DNA of 41,439 bases from a virus. The stretch spans positions 1-41,439 of the IMG/VR virus record IMGVR_UViG_3300046690_000575; one strand, written 5' to 3'. Made by a program: the position numbers and the translations under genes. The notes beneath the pieces were generated by a model, which made no database searches, was not told the origin of the DNA, and was given only the letters and a program-made list of their open reading frames with translations. Below are positions 1,069 to 37,954 of the stretch, one piece after another (positions within the stretch are counted from its first letter, which is position 1; each line of letters opens with the position of its first letter).

Positions 1069-1379
1069 GCAACCACCCCGAAGACTGCCCCTGCGTCAAC
1101 TGCAACCCGACCGCCTGCACCGATTGCGGGATGGCCTCGCCGGGTGGCACCCACTTGAACGAGCGCGGGATCTGCCGCCACAGCCGGGCTTGCACCGGGC
1201 GACAGATGCTCAAGGCCGGCGCCCCCGTCGAGGCGGCCGCGGCACATGCCCAGGGGCTTGACCGCGATGCTGGCGGCGTTGCCCCCGAGCTCACGCTGAC
1301 CGAGGGTGAGCTCCGCAACGGTGAGTCGTGGATGCCCGACGAGTGGCCCTTCGACGACGACCCGCCGGACCCGCTCTAG
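1065..1379 (+). CDS. Cys-rich putative zinc-binding protein (104 aa)
   Basis: GTG at 1065 overlaps the stop of the membrane peptide; starts further upstream in this frame would give an Arg-rich extension typical of an out-of-frame shadow. The first 45 residues hold seven cysteines (C8, C10, C13, C18, C21, C37, C43) and H30, compatible with one or two zinc knuckles. The C-terminal half is acidic and ends in DDDPPDPL. The stop TAG overlaps the next GTG. A nucleic-acid-binding role is a guess from the metal-site pattern. Confidence 0.65.
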   Translation: MSNHPEDCPCVNCNPTACTDCGMASPGGTHLNERGICRHSRACTGRQMLKAGAPVEAAAAHAQGLDRDAGGVAPELTLTEGELRNGESWMPDEWPFDDDPPDPL

Positions 1380-24600: not shown

Positions 24601-24797
24601 TGCATCCGGGCACCGAACAGATCCTGAGCCATTTCTCCTACGACCACCTCCCCGAGGAGTTGCAGGCGGTGAGCCAGCCGATTTGCGAGCTCGCTCACCA
24701 AATGGCGAAGGATCTGCCCGAGGGTCCCGAGTTGACCACCGGGCTCCGCAAGCTGCTCGAGGCTAAGGACTGCCTCGTGCGCGCCGCGCGGACGTAG
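24600..24797 (+). CDS. Acb2/Tad1 hairpin-like small protein (65 aa)
   Basis: GTG 24600 overlaps the previous TAG. The sequence MHPGTEQILSHFSYDHLPEELQAVSQPICELAHQMAKDLPEGPELTTGLRKLLEAKDCLVRAART forms two helices joined by LPEGPE. I know this shape (LP-x-GPE-x-T-x-x-LRKLLEAKD-x-x-VRAA) from small proteins widespread in actinobacterial phages, whose second half resembles the Acb2/Tad1 hairpin domain of cyclic-nucleotide sponges that block CBASS. Family membership is plausible, but binding residues cannot be checked here. It stops just before a tRNA-like hairpin. Confidence 0.6.
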   Translation: MHPGTEQILSHFSYDHLPEELQAVSQPICELAHQMAKDLPEGPELTTGLRKLLEAKDCLVRAART

Positions 24798-24801
24798 CGC
24801 T

Positions 24802-24834
24802 GGCCGGGGCGGGGTTCGACTCCCTGCCCCGGCC
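24802..24834 (+). other. tRNA-like acceptor/T-arm minihelix (continuous form)
   Basis: Five bases after the TAG at 24795-24797 lies one uninterrupted hairpin. GCCGGGG with CCCCGGC gives a 7-bp acceptor-like stem (plus one G-C pair outside it). CGGGG with CCCTG gives a 5-bp T-like stem with one G-T pair. The loop is TTCGACT, a canonical T-loop (TTCRA). The stem is followed by C-TTG, as in the two minus-strand elements at 37074 and 37643. There is no D or anticodon arm and no CCA end, so this is not a tRNA gene. Confidence 0.6.
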
Positions 24835-24844
24835 TTGGAGGGGC

Positions 24845-24860
24845 GTGAGGTACGCCTCAC
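24845..24860. promoter_or_regulatory. Inverted repeat upstream of 24881 promoter
   Basis: GTGAGG-TACG-CCTCAC is a perfect 6-bp inverted repeat with a 4-base spacer, 20 bases upstream of a TAGGGT -10 box. It could be a binding site or a hairpin; no protein is assigned. Confidence 0.4.
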
Positions 24861-24880
24861 GGATCAGGCCCCTCCTCTTG

Positions 24881-24976
24881 TAGGGTGCCGCTCGAGAGCG
24901 AACCCGGTCCCCTTGGAGGCTTCGACGACAGGGGGACCGGGTCGCTCCCGTTCTGGGCCTGTCCGGCGGGCCGGAC
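24881..24976 (+). ncRNA. Candidate small structured RNA or structured leader
   Basis: TAGGGT (24881-24886) can serve as a -10 box. Close downstream is a long hairpin: GCG(24898-24900)/CGC(24943-24945) and ACCCGGTCCCC (24902-24912) with GGGGACCGGGT (24932-24942), with one bulged A and a 19-base loop. Then comes GTCCGG-CGGG-CCGGAC (24961-24976), followed by TTCCTCGG. This could be a short RNA of about 85 bases or a structured leader for the gene at 25018, which has no visible ribosome-binding site. No -35 box is evident, so the promoter is uncertain. Confidence 0.45.
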
Positions 24977-35893: not shown

Positions 35894-36108
35894 TCGTTGG
35901 CCTCTCGGATCAGTCGGTTAGCGGTCTGTCGGGGGATCTCCTTGGGTGGGATCTTGCGGCCCTCCTCAAGCGTTAGCTCGGGGTGGTCGCGAGCCTCAGC
36001 GAGCGCGGAGCCGAGCCGCTTACGCAGCTTGGCTCCGGTCGCTTCCCACTCGGAGATTTCCTGAGCGGTCGCGCCGATGTCGAGCCGCACTTGCTCGGCT
36101 TTCTTCAT
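35890..36108 (-). CDS. Unknown 72-aa protein, possible HTH
   Basis: ATG at 36108 overlaps the protease TGA (ATGA). The protein (MKKAEQVRLDIGATAQEISEWEATGAKLRKRLGSALAEARDHPELTLEEGRKIPPKEIPRQTANRLIREANE) is helical and basic and contains a KLRKRLGSALAEARDH stretch reminiscent of the first helices of Cro/C1-type repressors, with DHPELTLEEGRKIPPKEIPRQTANRLIRE after it. A regulator is possible but unproven. Confidence 0.55.
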   Translation of the reverse strand: MKKAEQVRLDIGATAQEISEWEATGAKLRKRLGSALAEARDHPELTLEEGRKIPPKEIPRQTANRLIREANE

Positions 36109-36530
36109 CGGCTCGCCTCCCAGCGCCACAGCGCCCGCCAGCACAGCGCTGGTAGGTGCGTGAGGCTCGGGTACATCACGCTCTGCGGATCGTCGGAGTG
36201 CCCGAGCCCGCGCAAGTGCCCGAGCTCGTGGATCTCGACGGCGCAGGCCGTGCCGATGCTGGCGGGTCTCGCCAAGGACCGGCTGATGTACAGGGTGCAT
36301 TCCACTTCTTCGCCGGGTGAGGTTTCGGTTGCCTCGCCAAGCGCTTCGTTCGGCAGCGAGCCGTTGGGGACGATCTCTCGGTCGAGCGTCGAGCAGCCAA
36401 GCGGGCCGCCGCCCCAGTAGGAGGCGGCGAGCCCGTAGGCATGGTCGAGGCTCGCATCGAAGGGCGCAGCCTGCGCCGCTGGCGCGGCAATCACACCGGC
36501 CAGCAGCGCGGCTACGGTCGCGCGCCTCAT
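36105..36530 (-). CDS. Secreted metzincin-type metalloprotease (141 aa)
   Basis: ATG at 36530 overlaps the upstream gene's TGA. A signal peptide is clear (1-22, MRRATVAALLAGVIAAPAAQAA). The catalytic motif HELGHLRGLGH (101-111) is the metzincin zinc site HExxHxxGxxH, with E102 as general base, and SVMYP (117-121) gives the Met-turn (M119). Cys at 46, 78, 96 and 130 may form disulfides. At about 119 mature residues it is small for a matrixin-like enzyme. A secreted peptidase could act on host surface proteins or lysis inhibitors. Its phage role is unknown. Confidence 0.85.
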   Translation of the reverse strand: MRRATVAALLAGVIAAPAAQAAPFDASLDHAYGLAASYWGGGPLGCSTLDREIVPNGSLPNEALGEATETSPGEEVECTLYISRSLARPASIGTACAVEIHELGHLRGLGHSDDPQSVMYPSLTHLPALCWRALWRWEASR

Positions 36531-37039
36531 TCGGCGTAGTGCTCTGGCCGCTCGACCCCAAAGCGGTCAAGGGTCGCGGCGACGTGCTCCATGAAGCTCG
36601 CCGCGCTGCGCCACTGGTCCTTTCTCGGGACGCCTTGCGCGATCACGTGGGCGGCTTCGGCCGAGCGATCACCCGCGCGGTCCTGGCGGTCCAGCGTTGC
36701 CAGGAGGCCGTTAGCCACATCGACTGCGTTTGCGATTGCCTCGACGGTTGCAGCGGTGCCCCCGTCCCCGTCTTCGTCGGGGAGCTTCCACTCCCCACCC
36801 AAGAGCGTCAAGCATCCACGCTCAACGGCAATGCGTGGCCGGTCCTCGGCGTTGCTCTCGGGGTAGACGTAGATCGTCTCTCCGGCCGTTGATGTGATCG
36901 CAGGGCCGCCGTCTTGGGTTGAGTCCTGCGCGGCCGTGATCGCGCCGTGCAATTCGTCGGACGTGTCGAACTTCCGTGCTTGGGGAGCGTCCCCGGCCTC
37001 GACCTGGCGCCGGAGCAACTCCTCGTTGAGCTTCAACAT
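36527..37039 (-). CDS. Unknown 170-aa acidic protein
   Basis: ATG at 37039 is preceded by the leader ACCGAAGGGAG. The protein is acidic, with a beta-like middle (PAITSTAGETIYVYPESNAEDRPRIAVERGCLTLLGGEWKLPDEDG) and helices at both ends (KLNEELLRRQVEAGDAPQARKFDTSDELHGAIT; AATVEAIANAVDVANGLLATLDRQ...). No domain is recognised. Its start is separated from the previous gene by the minihelix at 37074-37116, with the conserved leader between. Function unknown. Confidence 0.65.
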   Translation of the reverse strand: MLKLNEELLRRQVEAGDAPQARKFDTSDELHGAITAAQDSTQDGGPAITSTAGETIYVYPESNAEDRPRIAVERGCLTLLGGEWKLPDEDGDGGTAATVEAIANAVDVANGLLATLDRQDRAGDRSAEAAHVIAQGVPRKDQWRSAASFMEHVAATLDRFGVERPEHYAE

Positions 37040-37073
37040 CGGTACTCCCTTCGGTTGTCGTCATGGGTACAAG
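37040..37073 (-). promoter_or_regulatory. Repeated leader (copy A)
   Basis: On the minus strand, CTTGTACC and then ACCGAAGGGAG precede ATG 37039. Almost the same arrangement precedes the starts at 37607 and 38928. The purine block is the ribosome-binding site. The CTTGTACC part is shared with copy B and begins at the 3' end of the minihelix. Confidence 0.55.
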
Positions 37074-37116
37074 AGACGGCGCGGGAGTCGAACCCGCGCC
37101 AGCCGCCGGGCCGTCT
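37074..37116 (-). other. tRNA-like acceptor/T-arm minihelix A
   Basis: On the minus strand AGACGGC (37116-37110) pairs with GCCGTCT (37080-37074) as a 7-bp acceptor-like stem. A 12-base linker (CCGGCGGCTGGC) leads to GCGGG-TTCGACT-CCCGC, a 5-bp T-stem with a canonical T-loop. The stem begins at the last base of the preceding gene's TGA. No D or anticodon arm, and C-TTG follows instead of CCA, so it is not a tRNA. Same size (43 bases) and plan as the element at 37643. Confidence 0.7.
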
Positions 37117-37607
37117 CAGTAGGGCTGCTGCCCGATCAGGCCGCCCTCGGCCGTTTCTGGGCCGTCTGGGCGCACAGGCGCGGAGATCTCGCCGCCTTCC
37201 TCGACCTCTAGCTCGTTGCCTTCGGCGCGGGCCTTGAGCGCCGCCTCCATGCGGTCGATAGCGGGCGCGAGGAACGAGCAGTAAAGCTCGTCGGGGTGGT
37301 GCTCTTCGATTTCGCCGATCAGCTTCGGCACGTCCTCAACCTCGCCCCGCGTCGCGATGATCTCCCCGGCTTCCTGCACGATCGCGTCTACGCCGTTGGC
37401 AGGCCGCGAGTCGATCAGAGAGGCGAGCCGGTCCTCTAGCGCGTTCTTGTAGTCGATCACGGCATCGACGCCGCCGAACTGCTCGTCGTCCATGCCGTCG
37501 CTGTAGCCGGTGGCCTCGGCCAGTTCCCGTAGCTCTTTCCGGCCGCGCGTCTCCTTGGGCTCCTTGCCCAGACCGTCAGCGCCGGCCACCTCGGATTCTG
37601 CGTTCAT
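37116..37607 (-). CDS. Unknown acidic protein (163 aa)
   Basis: ATG at 37607 follows AACCGAAGGGAGCACC; longer in-frame starts would run through the minihelix B sequence and are unlikely. The protein is acidic and helical (GYSDGMDDEQFGGVDAVIDYKNALEDRLASLIDSRPANGVDAIVQEAGEIIATRGEVEDVPKLIGEIEEHHPDELYCSFLAPAIDRMEAALKARAEGNELEVEEGGE). Its stop forms the start of minihelix A. Function unknown. Confidence 0.65.
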   Translation of the reverse strand: MNAESEVAGADGLGKEPKETRGRKELRELAEATGYSDGMDDEQFGGVDAVIDYKNALEDRLASLIDSRPANGVDAIVQEAGEIIATRGEVEDVPKLIGEIEEHHPDELYCSFLAPAIDRMEAALKARAEGNELEVEEGGEISAPVRPDGPETAEGGLIGQQPY

Positions 37608-37642
37608 GGTGCTCCCTTCGGTTGTACTGCTCTTGGTACAAG
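37608..37642 (-). promoter_or_regulatory. Repeated leader (copy B)
   Basis: On the minus strand CTTGTACCAAGAGCAGTAC then AACCGAAGGGAGCACC leads into ATG 37607. It matches copy A (37040-37073) and copy C (38929-38965) over most of its length. The block AACCGAAGGGAG is the ribosome-binding site; the repeated GTAC groups are shared by all copies. Confidence 0.55.
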
Positions 37643-37685
37643 GCCGCGCCCCGGAATCGAACCGGGGCGGTGCTCCAAGCGCGGC
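37643..37685 (-). other. tRNA-like acceptor/T-arm minihelix B
   Basis: On the minus strand GCCGCGC (37685-37679) pairs with GCGCGGC (37649-37643) as a 7-bp acceptor-like stem. The 12-base linker TTGGAGCACCGC leads to CCCGG-TTCGATT-CCGGG, a 5-bp T-stem with a canonical T-loop. The stem begins at the third base of the preceding gene's TAG, and C-TTG follows the stem. The plan is identical to element A in every measured length, while the stems differ in sequence, which suggests conservation of structure. Confidence 0.7.
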
Positions 37686-37954
37686 TAGGCCCACTCAGCG
37701 ACTAGGCGGTACGTCTCCGTCGAGCGGTCGCCGATGCGAGCCCACAGCCACCACCCGCCGTCAGGGACCAGGCCGCCGAAGACCTGCTCGACCCACAGGC
37801 CGAACATGCCGCCGGGGATCGGTCCACGGTCAGGGTCGCGATCTCGGCACCACGTCCGGCGGTAGCGCGGCAGGCCACGCTTTCCCGGTGAGACGACCGC
37901 CCACTCGCTGTAGAGGCGGCTCTTGTGGATGCAGCGGATCTCGAAGCCGAACAC
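37685..37954 (-). CDS. Unknown 89-aa protein
   Basis: GTG at 37954 directly follows the previous gene's TAG. The protein is rich in Trp/Gly/Arg (FGFEIRCIHKSRLYSEWAVVSPGKRGLPRYRRTWCRDRDPDRGPIPGGMFGLWVEQVFGGLVPDGGWWLWARIGDRSTETYRLVAEWA). No domain is recognised. Its stop TAG is the first base pair partner of minihelix B. Function unknown. Confidence 0.6.
   Translation of the reverse strand: MFGFEIRCIHKSRLYSEWAVVSPGKRGLPRYRRTWCRDRDPDRGPIPGGMFGLWVEQVFGGLVPDGGWWLWARIGDRSTETYRLVAEWA

Follow-up and report, generated by a model that had tools for sequence, protein, structure and literature searches.

Mini-tRNA elements at gene junctions of prokaryotic viruses and some haloarchaea: candidate sites of tRNA-type mRNA processing

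Introduction

The punctuation of mitochondrial transcripts by tRNAs was reportedly set out by Ojala in 1981. Mitochondrial mRNAs are released when RNase P and RNase Z cut the tRNAs that separate the cistrons (PMC4394434). The elements described here resemble that arrangement in that tRNA-shaped structures between cistrons would delimit the mRNAs, with RNase P and RNase Z as the proposed cutters; the mitochondrial structures, however, are real tRNAs that are released and used, whereas the phage elements have neither anticodon arm nor CCA, and their cutting is putative.

Phage RNAs are themselves known as RNase P substrates, namely the M3 RNA of phi80 and the C4 antisense RNA of P1 and P7 (PMC11143913). 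Like these, the mini-tRNAs are phage-encoded non-tRNA RNAs that host RNase P would cut, but M3 and C4 are single small RNAs, whereas the mini-tRNAs are repeated, intercistronic, equipped with a D arm and found in many unrelated viruses. RNase P also cuts bacterial operon mRNAs such as that of his, in studies listed in PMC11143913 (Alifano 1994; Li and Altman 2003). There too, a polycistronic mRNA is divided between genes. We know of no dedicated, conserved mini-tRNA structure described at his-type sites.

Two further relatives are structural. The tRNA-like domain of tmRNA (RF00023) shares the 12-bp acceptor and T stack, the T-loop, the reduced D loop and the lack of a usual anticodon stem, but it carries a long insert with the tag reading frame and a CCA, while the joint between D and T arms of a mini-tRNA measures at most a few nucleotides. 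Finally, top-half minihelices serve as substrates of the CCA enzyme, tRNase Z and RNase P (PMC3714273), and cleavage of a model duplex of 12 bp is efficient (PMC11221534). These models have the same 12-bp acceptor and T arm, which is enough for recognition in vitro; they are laboratory constructs, whereas the phage elements are natural and have a mini-D arm.

Results

Two elements on stop codons

The stretch of DNA analysed (“the window”) is the whole of the tailed-phage record IMGVR_UViG_3300046690_000575, 41,439 bp long with a GC content of 66%. The genes for terminase, portal and capsid lie on its plus strand, and the terminase finds its best matches, at 28–30% identity, in actinobacterial phages, among them Cellulosimicrobium phage DS1 and Arthrobacter phage Jasmine. 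The two elements lie on the minus strand among three genes (A, B and C) for which a family search of the window proteins found no family match:

37685–37954, minus strand: gene A, 89 aa; its TAG stop shares one base with element 2
37643–37685, minus strand: mini-tRNA element 2, GCCGCGC + 12 nt + CCCGG-TTCGATT-CCGGG + GCGCGGC, then C-TTGTACC
37622–37641, minus strand: hairpin TTGTAC-N8-GTACAA with a 6-bp stem, directly after element 2
37605–37623, minus strand: leader AACCGAAGGGAGCACC (Shine-Dalgarno-like) and ATG of gene B, as read from the sequence
37116–37607, minus strand: gene B, 163 aa, between the two elements; its TGA stop shares one base with element 1
37074–37116, minus strand: mini-tRNA element 1, AGACGGC + 12 nt + GCGGG-TTCGACT-CCCGC + GCCGTCT, then C-TTGTACC
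37037–37072, minus strand: leader TTGTACCCATGACGACAACCGAAGGGAGTACCGATG after element 1 and start of gene C, as read from the sequence
36527–37039, minus strand: gene C, 170 aa, downstream of element 1

Homologs of gene B occur in L210 (59/115 identical) and L266 (50/107), in both of which the stop overlaps an element, and homologs of gene C are present in L212 and L228. The gene that follows gene C (36105–36530, minus strand) matches matrixin-type metallopeptidases (PF00413, E = 3.7e-8).

The coordinates, stem lengths, loops and flanks that a first-pass annotation had given for both elements are all present in the sequence. Each element is 43 nt long and starts with the last base of a stop codon, element 1 with the A of gene B's TGA (37118–37116) and element 2 with the G of gene A's TAG (37687–37685). 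Its description of perfectly paired stems that differ between the two elements, with no anticodon arm and no encoded CCA, is likewise borne out. Its statement that the elements lack a D arm has to be corrected, as folding, together with covariation in relatives, makes the 12-nt linker a hairpin of 2–3 bp with a G-G loop.

Folded without constraints, both elements form a three-way junction, element 2 at −24.6 kcal/mol and element 1 at −24.3 kcal/mol. Element 2 has the linker GCU-UGG-AGC, the linker of element 1 forms CC-CGGC-GG, and the linkers of related elements make hairpins of 2–3 pairs around a UGG loop (GCU-UGG-AGC, GCA-UGG-UGC, GUU-UGG-AAC, GAA-UGG-UUC). The acceptor and T pairs sum to 12 whatever the split between them, and in 42-nt elements only about 4 nt separate the D stem from the T stem. 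The element is thus a mini-tRNA composed of an acceptor, a mini-D arm and a T arm, without anticodon arm or CCA, in which the G-G of the D loop could lock onto the T-loop and build a tRNA elbow.

The leaders behind the two elements share AACCGAAGGGAG, which has no other exact copy in the window. A clear hairpin stands behind only one of the two, element 2, where the following 32 nt fold at −5.6 kcal/mol; the structure after element 1 is weak. The inverted repeat TTGTAC-N8-GTACAA also follows elements in L001, L007 and L038, and the hairpin at 37622–37641 would form the 5′ end of the downstream message if element 2 were cut out. Within the window, TTGTAC occurs at 9 sites against 2.5 expected; three adjoin the two elements, and one pair makes up TTGTAC-N8-GTACAA.

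Structure is conserved rather than sequence

We built a covariance model (R1) from 28 elements of other viruses, leaving the window out. Run on the 41-kb window, R1 found element 2 at E = 1.8e-12 and element 1 at E = 4.5e-10, and because a model built from other viruses detects both, they are not chance structures. Among the 28 aligned elements, 99.0% of cells are paired compared with 59.5% in shuffles, two-sided changes occur at 13 of 14 pairs, D stem included, and the covariation score of 1.01 (0.20 in shuffles) was reached by 0 of 500 shuffles. The pairing signal is lost when the partner is slid by 1–3 columns, and the T-loop of the set is invariantly UUCGA-N-U. The acceptor and T stems had been used to select these 28 elements and the two D-stem pairs had not; the latter, unselected, are paired in 96% of cells.

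A pattern that covers the D-arm core and T-loop only, CTTGGAGC..GGTTCGANTCC, is blind to the acceptor. Many matches to the GGTTCGANTCC pattern are ordinary tRNAs, which were taken out by ARAGORN masking or by eye; 53 of the 63 non-tRNA matches of CTTGGAGC..GGTTCGANTCC have all 12 of 12 acceptor and T pairs and 5 of the 63 have 11 of 12, while swapping the 5′ flanks among matches leaves 12/12 pairs in only 12%. We further predicted that a compensated D arm, CATGGTGC, would mark genuine elements and that a mismatched one, CTTGGTGC, would not: the former gave 12/12 pairs in 55 of 81 matches (71 of 81 with at least 11), the latter in only 3 of 22. The longest unbroken stem is 11–13 bp in 121/151 matches and never 14 bp or more.

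Direct comparison with relatives points the same way. The element after the gene B homolog of L266 has the acceptor GGGCGGC/GCCGCCC where the window has AGACGGC/GCCGUCU, and the ortholog of element 2 in L212 has GCUGCGC/GCGCAGC where the window has GCCGCGC/GCGCGGC, both differences being compensatory. With these and the two-sided changes above, the earlier suggestion that structure is kept rather than sequence is upheld.

Place at gene junctions

We counted stop positions in both D-arm-pattern sets, using frames open for at least 50 codons. In 35 of the 87 cases with a stop within 14 nt, the stop ends on the first paired base of the element, about six being expected; for one of 15 offsets, this one-base overlap has p = 5e-19. 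Other copies lie 5–13 nt or more downstream of the stop. Behind the element follow 1–5 bases, often a hairpin, then a ribosome site and a start. The second base behind the element corresponds to tRNA position 74; in 90 thinned elements it is C in 70% of cases and G in 1%, position 75 is C in only 9%, and NCCA is encoded in only 4 of 121 elements.

Spread among viruses and archaea

The first-pass annotation had proposed a covariance search for such elements next to stop codons in related phages; pattern scans and R1 searches place them, adjoining stop codons, in close and distant phages alike. Scanning viral contigs for the T-loop with TTGTACC gave an element on a stop codon in the high-GC contigs L001, L007, L019, L038, L058 and L070 (twice), and scanning for the TTGGAGC-type linker motif gave many more viruses, unrelated and often AT-rich. 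R1 matches occur in 38/38 virus records with up to 12 per record, figures that describe copy number and not frequency since each record was picked because it held a match. The searches were seeded with patterns, so the diversity of the elements is underestimated.

The hosts of IMG/VR contigs are predicted from gene similarity. Among the carriers are relatives of Bacteroides fragilis phages, with a portal that shares 67% identity with that of BF503P1, and phages related to the crAss-like Cellulophaga phi38:1. The element is absent from 11 named phages picked by terminase or portal similarity (e.g., Jasmine, DS1, BF503P1, phi38:1), and its function is therefore not universal in these groups. Matches in the named phages W06, W07 and W09 proved to be real tRNAs, and that in W01 a weak fragment; a direct DNA search of the window region against named phages gave no match.

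A short-sequence search found cultured carriers: the Gordonia phages VanLee and Morgana and the Halorubrum tailed virus BLv36. In BLv36, an annotated gene ends on the first base of the element. VanLee has 14 R1 matches; Morgana has 9 with E ≤ 0.01, including a short, partial one on the opposite strand. The minus-strand operon of VanLee has 17 gaps of 25 nt or more, and 16 of them contain an element, 14 found by the model and two by eye, the latter with the same structure and the loops TTCAAGT or TTCAACT; the lone gap without one, of 362 nt, is the first of the operon. Most VanLee elements are then followed by a hairpin. The paper describing VanLee does not mention the element (PMC8320454).

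Among haloarchaea, 19 of 292 genomes have a close match to a strict 37-nt pattern, and the reversed pattern gave 0. Most haloarchaeal copies have a short C-rich/G-rich hairpin behind them and a start codon about 20 nt further on. We regard the haloarchaeal copies as a cellular use of the element. On haloarchaeal chromosomes and plasmids (L332, L465, L609–L629), the mini-tRNA usually stands ahead of genes with SipW-type signal peptides. The matches of the genome-contig scan were mostly archaeal and acidobacterial tRNAs.

Relation to known RNA classes

ARAGORN finds no tRNA in the window. The elements have the canonical 12-bp acceptor/T stack, a T-loop of UUCRANY and a D arm with GG, but with about 4 nt joining the D and T stems there is no anticodon arm with a seven-base loop, and they are not canonical tRNAs. 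On eight element loci, ARAGORN returned nothing in seven and a single 91-nt tRNA-Val call in L470 (9727–9817). No Rfam 15 family exceeds its curated threshold in the window, where only sub-threshold tmRNA and tRNA-Sec fragments appear; the tmRNA match to an element covers just an 18-nt piece of the T arm and scores below the cut-off. In the open-access literature we found precedents for parts of the element but no description of the class, and no Rfam family describes it.

Several features of processing substrates are present. For RNase P, this is the stack of about 12 bp of acceptor and T arm (11–13 bp in 121/151); for RNase Z (tRNase Z), an acceptor and T minihelix with an elbow and no encoded CCA; and for tRNA punctuation, tRNA-shaped elements at gene junctions that abut stop codons. 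The 3′ RCC(A) of RNase P substrates, which pairs with L15, has a partial counterpart here in the frequent C at position 74, while C at position 75 is uncommon. Punctuation with release of a functional tRNA does not apply to an element without an anticodon arm, nor does the plant-virus type of tRNA-like structure, which is 3′-terminal and ends in a CCA open to aminoacylation, as the elements are internal and CCA is rarely encoded.

Discussion

The structure, covariation, place, order of parts and spread of the elements are direct observations; from them we infer recognition and cutting, and in our judgement the tRNA-end enzymes of the host (RNase P and/or RNase Z) probably do cut operon mRNA at the mini-tRNAs. 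Which of the two would act, and how expression would change, we describe conditionally. The elements would work in cis in the polycistronic mRNA, after a stop codon and before the next leader, where host enzymes would mistake them for precursor tRNAs. The cut might be made on the 3′ side of the discriminator, by RNase Z or some other nuclease, on the 5′ side of the first pair, by RNase P, or at both places. The operon mRNA would be divided into separate messages, the downstream one beginning with a short leader and often a protective hairpin, the upstream one reaching to its own stop codon or to the end of the mini-tRNA. In bacteria, RNase P measures the acceptor and T stem, contacts the T-loop and pairs with a 3′ RCC (PMC10731613). 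An unbroken stem of 11–13 bp is as expected for enzymes that measure the acceptor and T stem. Judged by sequence features, the anatomy fits the mRNA processing that the first-pass annotation had suggested: a 12-bp stack, a T-loop, a G-G D-loop, C at position 74, an intercistronic place and a frequent 5′ hairpin. The elements would thus keep what processing enzymes need and drop what translation needs, and it is because they keep the former and sit where cuts separate messages that we favour punctuation.

Which cut is made may depend on the class of junction. A strong determinant for bacterial RNase P is mostly absent, since so few elements encode NCCA, and the 3′ flank of both window elements is C-T-T, not R-C-C. 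RNase P cuts would fall at 37117/37116 and 37686/37685, inside the stop codons, whereas freeing the TTGTACC leader would take a cut behind the discriminator base, by RNase Z (or another nuclease) and not by RNase P. Non-stop messages are not normally repaired in bacteria, unlike in mitochondria, where incomplete stop codons offer a parallel for a cut within the stop codon. Since an RNase P cut would take off the last base of the stop codon and produce a non-stop message, 3′ or late cutting is favoured in the stop-overlapping subclass, where the likelier options are that RNase Z cuts on the 3′ side or that only untranslated RNA is cut. More tentatively, and with rather less confidence, we suggest a general, hitherto undescribed RNA-processing code of prokaryotic viruses and some haloarchaeal operons, with one purpose-built mini-tRNA per junction that makes host tRNA enzymes cut; where an element overlaps the stop, the stop codon itself would be severed, and translation of the last codon and processing would be mutually exclusive.

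The alternative that survives best is a tRNA-like 3′ cap or roadblock, which would stop 3′-to-5′ exonucleases, or be trimmed and given a CCA, and so protect the 3′ end of the upstream cistron. Plant viral RNAs carry tRNA-like ends, and a stable structure directly behind a stop codon, overlapping it, suits a 3′-end role better than it suits cutting by RNase P; the CCA enzyme, moreover, accepts top-half minihelices (PMC3714273). A plain hairpin would suffice for this, however, and the 11–13 bp stem, T-loop, covarying D arm and C at position 74 point instead to tRNA enzymes, while the hairpin that opens the next unit suggests a new 5′ end too. We consider a cap unlikely.

Clearly less probable is a translation insulator, a structure at the stop that pauses or releases ribosomes or blocks reinitiation and so uncouples the genes without a cut. 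The exact one-base overlap in 35/87 cases is what it would lead one to look for, and the stem would be melted by a ribosome sitting on the stop, but many copies stand 5–13 nt or more from the stop, beyond a fixed register, and the tRNA elbow is left without a reason. That copies recur along a single operon, oriented with transcription, could suggest an element that acts on RNA polymerase, such as a put-like antiterminator or a pause site. Here the stem sequences are free to vary while tRNA features are kept, and the element occurs in bacterial and archaeal systems, whose RNA polymerases differ, which makes this reading improbable as well.

An intrinsic terminator with a chance T-loop sequence is largely refuted and very doubtful: one terminator-like site was called on element 1 in a scan, and a T-loop hairpin is followed by T6 in some low-GC contigs, but a T-rich tail is present in only 15 of 124 elements, a terminator needs neither a three-way junction nor D-arm covariation, and the elements lie inside operons. 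The T arm and 3′ acceptor resemble sequences that attP carries in tRNA-targeting phages such as HF2 (PMC8707807), but an origin as leftovers of tRNA genes or attP sites after integration or deletion is refuted by covariation and copy number: both acceptor strands are kept and covary, and there are up to 12–14 copies per genome with differing stems. The window also gives no tRNA match by ARAGORN or at Rfam curated thresholds.

If punctuation by mini-tRNAs is correct, phages and some archaea use the mitochondrial solution with elements pared down to the needs of the processing enzymes, and the elements offer a natural collection of minimal substrates for RNase P and RNase Z, drawn from bacteria and archaea. 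It would also explain how separate messages arise from tightly packed phage operons, and the covariance model would be able to annotate many intergenic regions. As VanLee and Morgana are cultured, punctuation can be tested at once.

Related structures

Several structures resemble the elements in part. The window itself contains a possible third minihelix without a D arm:

24802–24834, plus strand: GGCCGGGGCGGGG-TTCGACT-CCCTGCCCCGGCC, a 13-bp T-loop hairpin four bases after a TAG (24795–24797)

R1 matches this site at 24783–24833 with E = 1.7e-4, the 5′ half fitting poorly, and the hairpin is possibly a D-armless form of the mini-tRNA element. Two more inverted repeats lie behind it (window 24783–24940, plus strand).

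L013 (minus strand), L021, L045, L061, L072 and similar loci, in a group of low-GC contigs that closely resemble one another, have a 9–12 bp hairpin with the loop TTCGACT and a T-rich tail, immediately behind a TAA stop and followed by TTGTACC. Either these hairpins are cousins of the element that resemble terminators, or the T-loop has been put to use independently; with their T6 tail they were treated as possibly a kind of terminator and left out of the mini-tRNA elements.

In L236 (2943–6964, plus strand), the mini-D arm can be extended to 6–8 pairs (CCTGCA-TGG-TGCAGG) by way of the 5′ acceptor strand, and the two competing folds are a possible switch. A related element of L073 (at 118, plus strand) has an extra internal hairpin (CCTCCCGGACGGCGGGAGG) ahead of TTGTACC and is perhaps an intermediate between tRNA and mini-tRNA. 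A last case concerns L458 (about 1180–1290, minus strand) and mycobacteriophage D29 (about 47,980–48,090). In D29, an unannotated tRNA-like RNA lies ahead of gene 89, with GGGTAGC...CTACCAGGTTCGATTCCTGGCTACCC interrupted by roughly 70 nt, and relatives share the T-arm match.
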